Shown here: one piece after another, positions 7,688 to 14,357 of the stretch
Position numbering within the stretch: the stretch's first letter is position 1
Layout: each line of letters begins with the position of its first letter
Origin: an uncultured Erysipelotrichaceae bacterium
GTDB taxonomy: Bacteria; Bacillota_I; Bacilli_A; Erysipelotrichales; Erysipelotrichaceae
Reading direction: 5' to 3'
Assembly: GCA_902766435.1 (NCBI GenBank)
Contig: CACXDM010000063.1
Span: forward strand, 1-32,072
DNA: 32,072 nt
The notes under the pieces: generated by a model
What the model was told of the DNA's origin: nothing
The model's database searches: none
Seen by the model: the letters and a program-made list of their open reading frames with translations, nothing else
Translations under genes and position numbers: made by a program

Positions 7688-8014
7688 TCAAATATTAAGG
7701 CAATGCATGAATTCCTCTACCGCCCTGCGCTTCAGACGGTAATACGACGACGGATTATAGAATACTCTGTACCAACCGGTTTCACTTTTTTCAAGAAAAT
7801 CGTGACGGATAATATTCTTCGTGTCGTTTGAGCAGTCCTGTAAGGTACGGTCAATCGAATGAACATAGGCAATATCGTTCAGATATGAAGGATCGTTTCC
7901 CCTTGCGCCGGAGAATTCATACAGATCAATCCTTTTTTTCGAAGCGATATAAGTATCGCCCATGAACTGCAGAAGTTTTTTCTGCGTCTGATAATCTTTC
8001 GGTTTTTTGATCAT
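7688..8014 (-). CDS. Small HTH-like protein, possibly MG284/MPN403 or ArpU-like
   Basis: The 108-residue protein starts at the ATG at 8014 behind AAGGAG. It is basic and helical. Its C-terminal WYRVFYNPSSYYRLKRRA segment (about residues 80-98) resembles the recognition helix of ArpU and sigma-like phage regulators, where a Ser-x-Tyr-Tyr-Arg-Leu-Lys run follows a turn. I recall a similar pattern in mollicute MG284/MPN403 proteins, but the family name is tentative. It is divergent from the CPBP-like gene, and the 180-bp space between them contains an inverted repeat (8114-8128). That fits local or self-regulation, which is an inference. No terminator separates it from the ptsI leader. Confidence 0.7.
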   Translation of the reverse strand: MIKKPKDYQTQKKLLQFMGDTYIASKKRIDLYEFSGARGNDPSYLNDIAYVHSIDRTLQDCSNDTKNIIRHDFLEKSETGWYRVFYNPSSYYRLKRRAVEEFMHCLNI

Positions 8015-8900: not shown

Positions 8901-8926
8901 GAAAAGCCCGAAGGCTTTTGTTTTTA
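8901..8926. terminator. Second hairpin between the convergent CPBP-like and hpf genes
   Basis: AAAAGCC (8902-8908), CGAA, GGCTTTT (8913-8919), then GTTTTT on the plus strand. On the minus strand the loop reads TTCG, a stable tetraloop, directly behind the hpf stop, though the T-run there is short. It probably serves as tandem plus-strand terminator and minor hpf terminator. Confidence 0.65.
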
Positions 8927-9466
8927 TTCTTCAGCCGGTTCGACTTCAATCAGGCCGTAACCGGAACTGCTTCTCCTGTAAACCACGGAAACCTGGCCGG
9001 ATTCTTCATCTGTGTAGATAAAGAAATTGTGACCGAGAAGTTCCATTTTCATAATGGCCTCATCAAGATCCATCATGTCTGCCGTGACATTCTTTGTTCT
9101 TACGGGAATTGAATTCGCTGCCTTCTCTTCCTTTTCATCCATTTCCACAAATGCATTTGCAAGATGTTCACGGTGTCTTCTGTTCAGTCTTGTCTTCTGA
9201 CGTCTGATCTGATCCTCGAGCTTGTCAATTGCCAGATCCACCGCCGAATAGAAATCATCATGTTTGACTTCCGTTCTCAGGATACCGACTTTCGAAGGAA
9301 TCGTAATTTCGACTTTCTGGGAAGACGGATAAACGCGGGCTACGACTCTCGCTGTCGTATCCGGATCAATCAGAAGATACTTGTCGAGAGCAGAAAGTTT
9401 GTTCTCGATTTTTTCTCTCATTGAAGAAGTGATGGAAATATTCTTTCCGATAATTTCGAACCGCAT
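8924..9466 (-). CDS. hpf: Long-form ribosome hibernation-promoting factor
   Basis: The product has 180 residues from the ATG at 9466, which AAGGAGG precedes by 5 nt; the in-frame extension to 9502 is not supported. The N-terminal S30AE domain (residues 1 to about 100) opens with MRFEIIGKNISITSSMREKIENK. The C-terminal dimerisation domain (about 125-180) ends VVYRRSSSGYGLIEVEP. Long HPF dimerises 70S ribosomes into inactive 100S particles in stationary phase or stress. A TATAAT at 9573-9578 (minus) may be its -10; no matching -35 is seen. A small CCGGA/TCCGG hairpin (9514-9528) lies in the leader. Confidence 0.96.
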   Translation of the reverse strand: MRFEIIGKNISITSSMREKIENKLSALDKYLLIDPDTTARVVARVYPSSQKVEITIPSKVGILRTEVKHDDFYSAVDLAIDKLEDQIRRQKTRLNRRHREHLANAFVEMDEKEEKAANSIPVRTKNVTADMMDLDEAIMKMELLGHNFFIYTDEESGQVSVVYRRSSSGYGLIEVEPAEE

Positions 9467-9601
9467 ATGTACCTCCTTACTATAATTGTCAGCTTGTTTC
9501 ATCTGCGGTAAAACCGGATCATGTCCGGATTATTTATATTATTATTTTCAGATCTGTTTCTTTTCTGATTCCATTATACATTGCTTTCGTTAAACAAGAC
9601 A

Positions 9602-9634
9602 GAAAAAAAGCACATCCGCATTCCGGATGCACTT
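9602..9634 (-). terminator. Intrinsic terminator of the rimO-DUF2779 transcript
   Basis: Minus-strand AAGTGCATCCG, a 5-nt loop, CGGATGTGCTT and then T form an 11-bp stem with two G-U pairs. It begins right at the DUF2779 stop codon. Confidence 0.88.
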
Positions 9635-11109
9635 CATCCCCCTGCAAGTTCAAGAAGCCATTTATAAACCACTGTCATGGCATAGGAATCCATACCGCAG
9701 TATGCCTTAAGGTCTTCCGTGATTTTCTCTGTATCGGCACTCTCGTCATCGTAGTCCAGCAAACGCCACTGAAAGACCGCATCCATGCCCTCACGGATAT
9801 CCAGATTCTTATAGCCCTCGTCATCCATCATCGACATGATGGTTTTCAGTGACCAGAATCCCCGCATACGCACATCATAGACGGTTCCGGAAGAAAACGG
9901 CAGCTGAAGATCCTCCATCCGGCTGATCATATCCCTCAGCTGACCGGCATATTCGGGAAACTGCAGCGCAAGTTCCTCCAGCCGGATTTTCTCCGCACCT
10001 TCGGCGTTGTAGGCAACAAGTGTTCCTTCTGAAGGAACATCCCGGATCAGACCTTCCGCAAATTCCCGTCTGTCATCATGAACGGAGAGAAACACCGTAT
10101 GCGTAACTGTTCCGTCCTCATGGAGAATATGAATGGAATATTCAAAAGGAAGAACATCAAACGGATGCATTCCGTCATACGGCGGAATGGCAAATCTTTC
10201 CCATTCAAAATCAATGAATGTGATCGGATATTTCACATAGGAGAGCCAGGAACACAGCGCCGGTCTGTCAACGAACAATCCGCCGTTCTGATCACCGGCA
10301 ATCTGTGAATACTGCTGTCTGGACCCTTCGATCAGATCGGGGTCGGCATCCGCCAGATACTCGATTCCAGCGGCCTTCATGTCATAACGGTAATGGGAAG
10401 TAATCAATGTAATGATCGAATTCGCCGGTCCCTCTTTTTCCTCGGGAAAACAGGAGTCATAGTATCTGCACTTCTGCCGCGACACACATCTTGATGTTCT
10501 GACAGGAAGCTGAACCGTATCCCATCCGCAGGCCTGTACCCGAAGAATCAGATCAGTGAGATCCTTCATGTTCTTCTCCACCGCCTCACGGACAGGAATC
10601 ATCGGATGATTCTTATGATTGTAAAAACAGTCACTGATTCTGAACAGCTGATCCGGATCCAGTTCTCCCTGACGGACATAATCACTGTTCAGATGAATAA
10701 TATAGTAATCTTTGATCTTCAGGCCGTTTTTCTTCAGAACCCATACCGTATCACAGTACATCTCCATGTCATAGGGATGCGGGAACAGACCGATAAACAT
10801 AAAATAGATATCCCATCCGTCTTCATTCCGGTGAAGAAACGGCACTTTTACCCGCAGGTCCATATACGCAAATCTTGCGCTCACCAGCCAGTCATAATTC
10901 ACGGCCGCTTCAAGGGCTTTTTCAGGCTCGTCTCCTCTTTGTCCGCGGAATGCATTCACAGCCCCTATTTTCCCTGCTGCAAGCTCCGTCACTTCTTCAT
11001 CAAGACGCACAAAAGGCCGGTATTCACGCGGCGGTGAATCACGGTCTGTCAGATACAGACGCGGGCACCGTACAAATTTTTTCAGATCTGAAATATGAAG
11101 CATCATCAT
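9634..11109 (-). CDS. DUF2779 protein: Cas4-like Fe-S nuclease fold fused to a DEDD exonuclease-like domain
   Basis: The 491-residue protein has two parts. The N-terminal half has Cys15 (RCPRLYL) and Cys208, 214 and 220 (C-x5-C-x5-C, ending YYDSCF), the four-cysteine arrangement of Cas4/AddB-type Fe-S nucleases. The usual E-x-K metal-site strand appears to read IYFMFIGLFP (101-110), so this nuclease site looks dead. The C-terminal half is the DUF2779 RNase H-like fold: FIDFEWE (D300, E302), VAYNAEGAEKIRLEEL (366-381), DLQLPF (D400) and YCGMDSYAM (D474). ATGA overlap with the rimO stop points to translational coupling; three ATGs in a row leave the exact start open (11109, 11106 or 11103). The function is unknown. 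Confidence 0.82.
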   Translation of the reverse strand: MMMLHISDLKKFVRCPRLYLTDRDSPPREYRPFVRLDEEVTELAAGKIGAVNAFRGQRGDEPEKALEAAVNYDWLVSARFAYMDLRVKVPFLHRNEDGWDIYFMFIGLFPHPYDMEMYCDTVWVLKKNGLKIKDYYIIHLNSDYVRQGELDPDQLFRISDCFYNHKNHPMIPVREAVEKNMKDLTDLILRVQACGWDTVQLPVRTSRCVSRQKCRYYDSCFPEEKEGPANSIITLITSHYRYDMKAAGIEYLADADPDLIEGSRQQYSQIAGDQNGGLFVDRPALCSWLSYVKYPITFIDFEWERFAIPPYDGMHPFDVLPFEYSIHILHEDGTVTHTVFLSVHDDRREFAEGLIRDVPSEGTLVAYNAEGAEKIRLEELALQFPEYAGQLRDMISRMEDLQLPFSSGTVYDVRMRGFWSLKTIMSMMDDEGYKNLDIREGMDAVFQWRLLDYDDESADTEKITEDLKAYCGMDSYAMTVVYKWLLELAGG

Positions 11110-12416
11110 TCTTCTCCGTCAACCTCTTGTCCGATCAGCGTATGACCCGCTGCCTTTGTATATTTCACAAACGCAAAATCACCGGCCTGATGAACCTTCT
11201 CCGAATGAAAGCGGACATTTCCGTCAACATTATCCGGAGCGTGGAGTGCACTTCTGCCGATATACATCTCCGTAAGCGGATCGCGTTTTTCAATCAGAAC
11301 TTCCTCTGTCCTGCCGATCCTCTCCGCAAGTCTGGCATCTGAGATTCCTGCCTGCAGTTCCATAATATCCGCCCGCCGTCTTTCCTTTACTTCCGCCGGG
11401 ACATCATCCTCCAGTTCATATGAAGGCGTGTCTTCTTCGCGGGAATACGTGAAAACTCCCAGATGGTCCCACTGCACCTTTTCCGTCATGGAAAGATTAA
11501 GCGCATGGTCTTCTTCCGTCTCACCGGGGAAGCCGGTAATCAGTGTCGTTCTGAGTACCGCGCCGGGAAGTTCGCGTCTGATCTTTTCCGCTCTTTCCAG
11601 AATCAGGCTCCGGCTTCCGCGCCGGTTCATCGCCTTCAGCATATGATCACTTCCATGCTGAACGGGAATATCAAAATAAGGCAGTATATGCCGGCTGTCC
11701 CTGATTGTTTCAATCAGATCATCCGGTATCTCATCAGGATACAGATAGAGGACTCTGATCCATTTCACACCTTCAATGCTGTCCAGCTTTCTGAGAAGAG
11801 ATGAAAGATGGAGCTGATGATCAAGATCATATCCGTAGCGTGAACTGTCCTGGGCAATGAGATTCAGCTCCTTTACTCCCTTCTTTACAAGGCTTTCCGC
11901 TTCTGTCAGAAGTTCATCTTCCGGAACCGAACGCATACCCCCTCTGATCAGGGGAATTGCACAGTAGCTGCATCTGTTGTCACATCCGTCTGCGATTCTG
12001 AGATATGCCATCCAGGGCTTGCCGGAAAGCATTCTGGGCGCTTTGCCGTACTGATTGGCAATCTTCACACCAAGTGTTTCCGAAAGTATGTTTCCGAGAT
12101 CACGGTATTCATCAATTGAAATAAACCGGTCCACCTCAGGCATTTCCTCTTCCAGCTGCGGCTTATACCGCTTCGCAAGACAGCCCATGACGATCAGCTT
12201 CTTCAGTTTTCCTTCCTTCAGGTCAGCCATACTGAGAATTGTATCAATCGCTTCCGTCTTCGCACTTTCGATAAACCCGCATGTATTAATGATGATGGCT
12301 TCTGCCTCTGCCGGTTTTGTAACGATTTCCTGCCCGCTGAGATTCAGTATTCCCAGCAGGTTTTCCGTATCTACAAGATTTTTTGCACATCCAAGTGAAA
12401 TTACACCGATTTTCAT
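11106..12416 (-). CDS. rimO: Ribosomal protein S12 methylthiotransferase RimO
   Basis: The 436-residue radical SAM enzyme adds a methylthio group to the conserved Asp of ribosomal protein S12 (uS12). UPF0004 domain cysteines are at 10 (SLGCAKN), 46 (INTCGFI) and 79 (MGCLAK). The radical SAM triad is C145, C149 and C152 in DGCDNRCSYCAIP, and a TRAM-like domain ends the protein. GCAKNLVDTE marks RimO rather than MiaB. I chose the ATG at 12416 (GCGGAG 7 nt upstream); the open frame extends 36 codons further but would cross the promoter. Its stop overlaps the start of the DUF2779 gene. Confidence 0.95.
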   Translation of the reverse strand: MKIGVISLGCAKNLVDTENLLGILNLSGQEIVTKPAEAEAIIINTCGFIESAKTEAIDTILSMADLKEGKLKKLIVMGCLAKRYKPQLEEEMPEVDRFISIDEYRDLGNILSETLGVKIANQYGKAPRMLSGKPWMAYLRIADGCDNRCSYCAIPLIRGGMRSVPEDELLTEAESLVKKGVKELNLIAQDSSRYGYDLDHQLHLSSLLRKLDSIEGVKWIRVLYLYPDEIPDDLIETIRDSRHILPYFDIPVQHGSDHMLKAMNRRGSRSLILERAEKIRRELPGAVLRTTLITGFPGETEEDHALNLSMTEKVQWDHLGVFTYSREEDTPSYELEDDVPAEVKERRRADIMELQAGISDARLAERIGRTEEVLIEKRDPLTEMYIGRSALHAPDNVDGNVRFHSEKVHQAGDFAFVKYTKAAGHTLIGQEVDGEE

Positions 12417-12438
12417 ATCAATACTCCGCAACCAAAAT

Positions 12439-12447
12439 ATTATAACA
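12439..12447 (-). promoter_or_regulatory. Extended -10 promoter of rimO
   Basis: Minus-strand TGT-TATAAT has its -10 at 12439-12444, 22 nt before the rimO ATG. No strong -35 is present, so activity would rest on the extended -10. It lies directly downstream of the pepC terminator. Confidence 0.65.
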
Positions 12448-12459
12448 AGGTTGAACAGA

Positions 12460-12483
12460 AAAAAGAATGTATGTTTCCATACA
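12460..12483 (-). terminator. Short intrinsic terminator of pepC
   Basis: Minus-strand TGTATG, GAAA tetraloop, CATACA, then TTCTTTTTT start 3 nt after the pepC stop. The 6-bp AT-rich stem is weak, so read-through into rimO is likely. Confidence 0.65.
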
Positions 12484-12486
12484 CCC

Positions 12487-13821
12487 TCAGTCAGCCAGTG
12501 ATCCGAACGGATCCCACGGTTCAAGTTCCTTCGGTTCCGTATCCAGGATTTTCCTCTGTTCTTCAGTCAGATATTTTTTGTTTACCACTGCCTCATAGAC
12601 ATATTTCTCAAACCAGGTATCACTGCAGATGTAGTAACCCTTGTTGGCGCGGTCTTCGCCCCATGAGTTCTCAATCTTCCACCGCAAAGGTTTCTCACCG
12701 GCAAGACTCACTCCGGTAAATACCATAGCGTGATTCATGGCGCTGTATCCCGTGTCAAGCATCTCCGCTTTGGTCATGGAAAGACTCATGTCAAATGTAT
12801 TCTCATAATCAAACTGTGTGTCATCCCAAAGTCCGGTTTCCCTGTCACCGTCCTTGCCGCAGTCGCATCCGAACCATACCGGTTCAGACTGCTTCAGCTG
12901 GCGGAGAATCGCTTCCCTGAACTCATCAACCGGCAGATTCATGAACAGCGTTCGGTTGCCGCCGACAACATTGCCGAGATACTTTACCGTATACATTTTG
13001 TGGAACGGTTTGTCTTCTGTCGGACCGTTGATAATGCCGACGTAGTCATCAAGATCCACGGCCAGATATTTCTCATAGAATTCTTTCGGACTGACATCAC
13101 AGACCGCATGATATTTTCCGTCCTGATCAGCGTATTCGAATGTGAATTTCTCGGGCGGCAGACCAAGACAGGATACGAGAAGATTATAGTATTCTTTCAG
13201 TGCCTGTTCCTTGATGGCAGGGATTTCATCCGCTCTTCCTTCCTTTTTTGCCTTTCTGATATCGGCGTTGAACTTCTTGAGCCTTTGATCAAGAAGCGCA
13301 TTCATTGAGCGGGTGTTGGAAGACTGATACGTCTCAGGCATTGCCGTCTTGGGACAGATGCCGTACTTCTTGACAATACTGACAAGCATATCCCACTGTC
13401 CTCCGTCATGAACACCGGTTGCCAGCAGAAAACGCATGATCGGACTGTTCAGCGGCTGATCGATCTCATTGATAGATGCCTCCATCATGTAGTTTGCTTT
13501 TTCCAGCTTGTCATGGAAGGCAATGAAATTCTGGGAAAGTTCAAAATCTGAGATATTGTACTTTCTGCCGATGATTTCACGCAGAACATTCATTGCCGAG
13601 AATATCCAGCATCTTCCCGACTGTTTCTGGTTTGTTGCCTTCATGGTCCTGATGTCAATCGAGAAAAGATTTGGATTACGGACTTCGGCCTCAAATACGC
13701 GGCTGATCTGACTGACATCGTTTCTGGTCAGTGCATTTCTGACGACTCTTGCCTTTGTGTCCTTCAGATATGAGCTGCGAAGGGCTGATACTGTTTCCGA
13801 ACTGATGGGTTTCATAATCAT
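12487..13821 (-). CDS. pepC: Aminopeptidase C (bleomycin hydrolase family, peptidase C1B)
   Basis: The 444-residue cytoplasmic cysteine aminopeptidase carries the papain-type triad: Cys71 in NQKQSGRCWIFSAMNVLRE, His364 in MNHAMVFTG and Asn385 in WKIENSWGE. The length matches PepC (about 440-450). It forms a hexameric barrel in known members and trims N-terminal residues from peptides. AAGGAG lies 4 nt before ATG 13821 and 10 nt before ATG 13815, so either could be used. It is preceded by the HTH pair (89 bp gap) and followed by a weak terminator. Confidence 0.96.
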   Translation of the reverse strand: MIMKPISSETVSALRSSYLKDTKARVVRNALTRNDVSQISRVFEAEVRNPNLFSIDIRTMKATNQKQSGRCWIFSAMNVLREIIGRKYNISDFELSQNFIAFHDKLEKANYMMEASINEIDQPLNSPIMRFLLATGVHDGGQWDMLVSIVKKYGICPKTAMPETYQSSNTRSMNALLDQRLKKFNADIRKAKKEGRADEIPAIKEQALKEYYNLLVSCLGLPPEKFTFEYADQDGKYHAVCDVSPKEFYEKYLAVDLDDYVGIINGPTEDKPFHKMYTVKYLGNVVGGNRTLFMNLPVDEFREAILRQLKQSEPVWFGCDCGKDGDRETGLWDDTQFDYENTFDMSLSMTKAEMLDTGYSAMNHAMVFTGVSLAGEKPLRWKIENSWGEDRANKGYYICSDTWFEKYVYEAVVNKKYLTEEQRKILDTEPKELEPWDPFGSLAD

Positions 13822-13910: not shown

Positions 13911-14357
13911 TTACTTCGGGGCGTTTTGATCCCGTAAGTTGACGCAGTTTTTCAGACATGTATCCTGCAGTGTGCGCTGAATTTTCTTTTCCACGCATGA
14001 CACACTTACGCCAAGACACCAGGCAACTTCCGAAACCGGAATTCTCTCGGCATAAATCATCCAGATCATCATCGCCCCGATGCTGTCATCGATACAGGAT
14101 ATCACCTCCATTGTTTCATACAGCACTGCCTCATATCTCTGCTGTTTCATGTACAGTTCATCCTTACGGCAGATCCACTTCGTCAGATCCTTTTCCCTTT
14201 CCCCGGGATGGCTTATCTTCTGATACTGCTGCGCCCTGACACCCTCCATCATGTAATCGGCATATCTGATTTTCTCCCGGCATCTGAGCAATCCCTCAAA
14301 ATCACTGTAATAGCGGTTCAGTCTTTTTTTGAATGCGCGGATTTCCTGTGCGTTCAC
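13911..14357 (-). CDS. Small HTH protein, sigma-70 region 4-like, second gene of a coupled pair
   Basis: The 148-residue product starts with GTG at 14357, overlapping the previous stop as GTGA. It begins with a long helical basic region (about 1-100). It ends with a helix-turn-helix resembling sigma region 4 (IPVSEVAWCLGVSVSCVEKKIQRTL, about 107-131). The layout matches the upstream gene product, so the two look like diverged copies that may work together. Similar sigma-like or ArpU/DUF1492-type regulators occur in phages, but no other phage gene is near. An inverted repeat CCCCGA/TCGGGG (13893-13921) spans its stop and lacks a U-tract. Confidence 0.65.
   Translation of the reverse strand: MNAQEIRAFKKRLNRYYSDFEGLLRCREKIRYADYMMEGVRAQQYQKISHPGEREKDLTKWICRKDELYMKQQRYEAVLYETMEVISCIDDSIGAMMIWMIYAERIPVSEVAWCLGVSVSCVEKKIQRTLQDTCLKNCVNLRDQNAPK

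Follow-up and report, generated by a model that had tools for sequence, protein, structure and literature searches.

What a Cas4-like domain does once its cutting site is gone and its cysteines remain is the question raised by a gene at positions 9634–11109 of the window, by which we mean the whole 32,072-nucleotide stretch of DNA analysed here, from an uncultured Erysipelotrichaceae bacterium. All features given below by window position lie on the minus strand. The open reading frame encodes a protein of 491 residues, and its third ATG (11101–11103) is probably the conserved start. Residues 298–420 match the Pfam family PF11074 (DUF2779), scoring 115.6 bits where the cut-off is 23.3. The UU173 family of NCBIfam (NF045869) stayed below threshold at 17 bits against a cut-off of 225, and a PDB sequence search with the protein gave no match at E-values up to 1. 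Searches with PADLOC and PHROGs gave no match either, which leaves a defence or CRISPR link without support. The gene is single-copy in its own genome, and a DUF2779 gene was found, mostly as a single copy, in 46 of the 55 near-complete genomes of this bacterial family. Named relatives include Solobacterium-labelled MAGs, Lactimicrobium, Anaerorhabdus, Holdemania and Amedibacillus, all of the Erysipelotrichaceae.

DUF2779 has been described as family F.17, a predicted 3'-5' exonuclease with a DUF83 (PD-(D/E)XK-like) partner domain (Majorek et al. 2014, PMC3985635), and the parts of that survey drawn on here make no mention of an inactivated subfamily. Likewise, we found no report of such a subfamily in searches of one open-access library, which includes little from subscription journals and bioRxiv and so does not prove absence. 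The exonuclease prediction and the PD-(D/E)XK-like partner were therefore known, and what appears to be new, judging from aligned sequences, is a clade in which the partner's site is dead and the cysteines are kept. In the sections of a Mycoplasma bovis study considered here, disruption of the DUF2779 gene Mbov_0804 led to a growth defect in host-cell co-culture, and the gene set concerned also included replication, recombination and nucleotide-metabolism genes (PMC7373297). The defect shows that the wider DUF2779 family can matter; it says nothing on what DUF2779 does.

We compared 188 open reading frames over 400–430 residues, which reduced to 154 distinct sequences: 91 orthologues of the clade (loci of the same family with a frame of >430 residues, duplicates removed), 24 canonical paralogues of about 500 residues and 39 other DUF2779 members, mostly of 600–700 residues. 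Named GTDB genomes contributed 79 of 80 loci, the remaining one (L257) ending at a contig end; the named and unnamed sets share species and are not independent. When aligned with the canonical paralogues, the D-E-K-Q residues of active relatives correspond to P90, F103, F105 and T121 of the window protein. Pro90 (10840–10842) stands where active relatives have the catalytic Asp, with P in 88/91 orthologues and D in 24/24 canonical paralogues. Phe103-Met104-Phe105 (10795–10803) replaces E-x-K, with F or Y at 103 in 82/91, and Thr121 (10747–10749) takes the Gln column of the QhxxY helix, where Q occurs in 4/91 orthologues compared to 24/24 canonical paralogues. A helix Asp at 117, found in all 24 canonical paralogues, is also lost in the clade. 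A complete D-E-K set was seen in none of the 91 distinct orthologues and none of the 79 named genomes, in comparison to 23/24 canonical paralogues and 36/39 of the remaining members. This confirmed the sequence-only reading that the strand I101–P110 (IYFMFIGLFP) carries no E-x-K metal ligands. The same reading had put forward D84 as a candidate ligand, and this was ruled out, as D84 is not conserved and the catalytic Asp column falls on P90. The N-terminal domain also shows residues that are specific to the clade and absent from the canonical paralogues, namely H5 (87/91), D8 (88/91), R79 and R86 (89/91 each) and P90 itself.

The cysteines and the C-terminal half are as intact as had been claimed. 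Cys15 (11065–11067), the presumed first Fe-S ligand, is kept in 90/91 orthologues, and Cys208-x5-Cys214-x5-Cys220 (10450–10488), presumed ligands two to four, in 91, 90 and 90 of 91. All four are present in 90/91 orthologues, in 79/79 named genomes and in 24/24 canonical paralogues, and the spacing of the last three is identical in the active paralogue L033. The sole exception among the 91 (L191) has only the cysteine at 208 left. From this pattern we infer that the four residues may bind an Fe-S cluster. The C-terminal DEDDy 3'-5' exonuclease-like domain, placed by PF11074 and VIA-align at residues 291–491 (9637–10239), carries D300 and E302 of DEDD motif I (10204–10212), the third acid E373 in an N368-x4-E373 arrangement (9991–9993), and Y470-x3-D474 (9688–9702). 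Conservation of Y470 and D474 marks motif III as the DEDDy type. Each of the five DEDDy residues, including D300 and D474 where they had been placed, is found in 91/91 orthologues and 24/24 canonical paralogues, and the full set in 78/79 named genomes, the single miss being gaps at the last two positions.

To characterize the fold of both halves, we modelled the full-length protein with AlphaFold2 on 64 homologues, which gave a pLDDT of 94.1 and a pTM of 0.86; a separate model of residues 1–276 had a pLDDT of 94.6. With VIA-align, the N-domain model matched RecE (3h4r, Z 9.7), Cas4 (7mi4, Z 9.2, rmsd 4.8, 173 aligned), SSO0001 (4ic1, Z 8.7), AdnA (Z 8.2) and Exo5 (Z 8.1). AddB (Z 7.2) and Dna2 (Z 5.5) ranked further down among the matches, most of which are PD-(D/E)XK-type nucleases. 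The C-terminal part of the full-length model (residues 294–491) matched a PolB exonuclease domain (5mdn) with Z 15.2, rmsd 3.0 and 171 aligned, and ExoI (4hcc) with Z 13.1. Foldseek alone returned nothing below an E-value of 0.001, its best values for the N-domain being 1e-3 to 1e-2. For the fold assignment we therefore rely on VIA-align, on the composition of its match list and on homology to the canonical paralogue L033, which matches the PADLOC Cas4 profile with E 0.00079; the 491-residue protein has no match to that profile. The models thus predict a Cas4/RecB-type fold for the N-terminal half and a PolB-exonuclease fold for the C-terminal half. The Cas4/RecB-like domain without catalytic ligands, drawn from AlphaFold2 and VIA-align, spans residues 1–230 (10420–11109). 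With the catalytic D, the E-x-K and the QhxxY Gln all absent from its predicted RecB-type fold, it would be a nuclease-like fold stripped of catalytic residues, as in RecC. The main claim of the sequence-only reading, a Cas4-like four-cysteine module without a metal site joined to one intact (predicted) DEDDy exonuclease, thereby held clade-wide, under constraint and with matching folds.

Next, we considered how often the site was lost and whether the domain is still under selection. A tree of the C-terminal half only, which excludes the N-domain trait columns and whose root was not inferred, was built from 81 sequences and then from 78 after removal of the long branches L188, L195 and L197. 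It placed all 38 clade rows on one side of a branch with UFBoot/SH-aLRT support of 100/100, and an earlier C-half tree with 39 clade rows gave an SH-aLRT of 99. A single clade in this tree is most simply explained by one loss of the metal site, which would have come before most Erysipelotrichaceae diversified. In 23 close pairs taken from 31 candidates, dN/dS was 0.027–0.196 for the N-domain and 0.012–0.114 for the C-domain, with one C-domain value undefined. The low N-domain values indicate that the dead domain is under purifying selection, and that it is less constrained than the C-domain; dN/dS was higher for the N-domain in most pairs, and mean identity was 0.32 for the N-domain compared to 0.47 for the C-domain.

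The wider family shows that these parts can decay separately. A paralogue bearing D-E-K stands alongside the dead version in some same-genus genomes (for example G007, G013, G022, G192 and G201). This second paralogue, with D-E-K and all four cysteines intact (L027–L044, e.g. L033:1276–2757, minus strand), is carried by fewer than half of the genomes of the genus. Three proteins from two genomes (L159, L160 and L170) show the reverse of the window protein, with D-E-K kept and the cysteines gone. Proteins of code-4 Mollicutes have D-E-K intact and one of the four cysteines missing (the fourth position in one alignment, the third in another), and L162 has lost the ligands and kept four cysteines. 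Three proteins from small code-4 genomes (L188, L196 and L198) have lost both ligands and cysteines and kept all DEDDy residues. The DEDDy residues are kept in all of these proteins; in L195 part of DEDDy is lost as well. Since DEDDy persists as D-E-K and the cysteines decay separately, the exonuclease half appears to be the most constant part of the DUF2779 family. Matches to PF13482 (RNase_H_2, MrfB-like) included many frames of ~1,400–1,490 residues, probably PolC; the shorter ones occurred both alongside DUF2779 and in its absence.

The gene neighbourhood had been read as a pointer to RNA or translation. At the window the coupling is physical: the stop of rimO (11106–12524; UPF0004, radical SAM and TRAM_2 domains), whose start is likely at 12416 (MKIG...), overlaps the first ATG of the DUF2779 gene. 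A terminator-like hairpin (9607–9635, a 12-pair stem with a T tail) follows right after the DUF2779 stop. The overlap and the hairpin together suggest that the unit is likely rimO-DUF2779. A further terminator-like hairpin after pepC (12463–12488) would delimit rimO-DUF2779 as its own unit. Next downstream lies a syntenic neighbour, a gene for a long ribosome hibernation factor (HPF, 8924–9502; PF02482 and PF16321), which is not part of our proposed mechanism and is separated from DUF2779 in the window by the hairpin. We also noted two frames without a Pfam match: one of 108 residues (7688–8014) between HPF and ptsI, present in 17/61 clustered loci, and one of 148 residues (13911–14357) upstream of pepC, whose C-terminus resembles a sigma-like helix-turn-helix by eye.

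Counts of HPF and rimO, made with profiles built from clustered neighbours, showed that the linkage changes between genera. Among 20 same-genus loci, rimO was adjacent upstream in 15 and somewhere upstream in 19, and HPF was adjacent downstream in 19. Among other-genus loci with enough flank, rimO was adjacent in 0/38 and HPF in 8/38; HPF lay somewhere downstream in 21/40, always on the same strand, and was absent from the examined region of the other 19. The rimO linkage thus stood within the genus and was absent beyond it. In four other-genus loci (L119, L120, L132 and L133) the order is rimO-ROK-M29 peptidase-DUF2779-HPF, which suggests that rimO adjacency probably arose through loss of the two intervening genes. 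Neighbours were clustered at 61 loci, one of which (L104) carries no DUF2779 cluster label. In other genera, an HTH-WYL regulator gene immediately precedes DUF2779, in the same orientation, in 17/60 clustered loci, and in 18/38 other-genus loci by profile count; 9/9 of the WYL-type neighbours tested carry PF13280 above cut-off. Examples of upstream WYL genes are L111:8264–9205 and L112:8570–9517. WYL regulators have been tied to single-stranded DNA and DNA damage in the portions of three studies considered here (PMC11804915, PMC12340889, PMC10693628). In the same setting, a PF00882-like gene follows DUF2779 in 13/60 clustered loci, often with small gaps or overlaps between the genes. The neighbours vary between lineages and include no constant DNA-repair complex gene, which weighs against the reading proposed below.

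Taken together, we propose with slightly better than even confidence that the protein is a single-site DEDDy 3'-5' exonuclease whose inactivated, presumably Fe-S-stapled N-domain binds or threads the strand. The C-terminal site would trim 3' ends, most likely of single-stranded or end-processed DNA. The N-domain, presumably stapled by an Fe-S cluster, would bind or thread the strand and hand the 3' end over to the catalytic residues of the C-domain. The old metal site would be packed with aromatic residues and a proline, with H5, D8, R79 and R86 fixed. Exonuclease activity of the C-domain is predicted from its model and motifs. We favour DNA over RNA as the substrate, given the fold shared with PolB and ExoI and the presence of WYL genes next door; the likeness to PolB exonucleases is compatible with an RNA substrate too. 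For the strand-threading role we reason by analogy. In AddB, Exo5 and Dna2, a domain of this Cas4-like shape surrounds the single strand. A variant in which the old site became a ligand or strand sensor, with a pocket of H5, D8, R79, R86 and P90 that binds a nucleic-acid end or nucleotide and with the Fe-S-stapled domain as a gate for the DEDDy exonuclease, possibly responsive to the redox state of the cluster, seems unlikely.

The closest precedent for the N-domain is RecC, in which an inactivated RecB-type nuclease domain serves as a hoop for single-stranded DNA, according to the parts of that work used here (Rigden 2005, PMC1185551). As in RecC, a RecB-type domain without catalysis would be retained for handling single-stranded DNA, and a hoop role for the N-domain is suggested by this analogy. 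RecC differs in being part of a helicase complex, whereas in the clade the domain adjoins an exonuclease domain in one polypeptide and retains four cysteines, presumed to hold Fe-S. In the sections consulted of another study, the TTV1 nucleocapsid protein TP1 is described as derived from Cas4 with its catalytic residues lost, and as lacking an Fe-S cluster owing to a split of its gene (PMC4625639); the clade, in contrast, retains the cysteines. Cas4 itself is alike in fold (Z 8.7–9.2) and in having four cysteines, but the PD-DEXK motifs that are conserved in Cas4 proteins, as stated in the part of a Cas4 survey seen here (PMC5704561), are gone in the clade, and the PADLOC Cas4 profile is unmatched. 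The nearest relatives, the canonical DUF2779 proteins, share with the clade the two-domain layout, the four cysteines and their spacing, and the DEDDy residues, and they differ in keeping D-E-K (23/24 compared to 0/91). The spacing of the cysteines is Cx5Cx5C in the clade, compared to CxxCx5C in Cas4. The C-domain resembles PolB-type and MrfB/COG2251-type DEDD exonucleases in fold and acidic residues and has a different partner domain; MrfB is of the DEDDh type according to the part of the source used here (PMC11194089), whereas the window protein is DEDDy.

Alternative roles for the N-domain have to be weighed against the same alignments. Ligand migration is a known trait of PD-(D/E)XK nucleases, and the domain could still be a nuclease with its metal site rebuilt from D/E114, which immediately precedes the former ligand helix, and K88, perhaps with H5 and D8. 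Position 114 is D or E in 79/91 orthologues and position 88 is K or R in 76/91, in addition to the near-invariant H5 and D8. We nevertheless consider this very unlikely. The strands 74–82, 85–95 and 98–105 hold no invariant acid among the orthologues, the Glu column is F or Y in most of them and no orthologue has a complete D-E-K. Moreover, the code-4 Mollicutes members, whose D-E-K is intact, also carry basic residues around positions 86 and 88, which are therefore not a clear compensation for the lost site. A fairly unlikely alternative is that the N-domain is a passive scaffold for folding of the C-domain, with structural cysteines holding Zn or Fe-S. Its lower identity and higher dN/dS would fit such a role, as would the separate or joint loss of cysteines and D-E-K in the wider family where DEDDy stays; the clade-specific, near-invariant charged residues H5, D8, R79 and R86 and the N-domain dN/dS of 0.03–0.20 argue against it.

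Whether the substrate is instead RNA, or ribosome-associated RNA handled alongside RimO and HPF, depends on the neighbourhood. The overlap with rimO in the window and the adjacency of HPF in 19/20 same-genus and 8/38 other-genus loci speak for such a substrate, and the downstream, same-strand HPF of 21/40 other-genus loci would fit a ribosome or stationary-phase role. In a lineage with longer DUF2779 proteins, the gene adjoins cysS and a Mini-III-like gene; trigger-factor, cysS, gltX and Mini-III are names that we assume for neighbours in these loci from reading their sequences rather than from profiles. We regard an RNA role as quite unlikely, given that rimO is adjacent in 0/38 other-genus loci, that the rimO-ROK-M29-DUF2779-HPF order suggests adjacency through gene loss, that a terminator-like hairpin precedes HPF and that WYL genes are the neighbours in other genera. 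For the first two reasons rimO was rejected as the main clue, and with it the argument for an RNA or translation role that had been drawn from this gene; the HPF link is commoner, and it stays part of this less likely alternative in spite of the hairpin in the window and the absence of HPF from the examined region of 19/40 other-genus loci.

In conclusion, a single-site exonuclease with a strand-binding, Fe-S-stapled N-domain is the reading we favour for the window protein. In Cas4, AddB, Exo5 and Dna2 an Fe-S cluster and a cutting site come together, so that it is difficult to tell what the cluster does apart from cleavage. In the present case an entire bacterial family appears to have erased the cutting site and kept the cysteines, and D-E-K paralogues, where they share a genome with the dead version, provide a natural control. 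What a cluster-bearing domain does without cleavage would thereby become directly testable, and DUF2779, a family without an assigned function, gains a specific mechanistic hypothesis.
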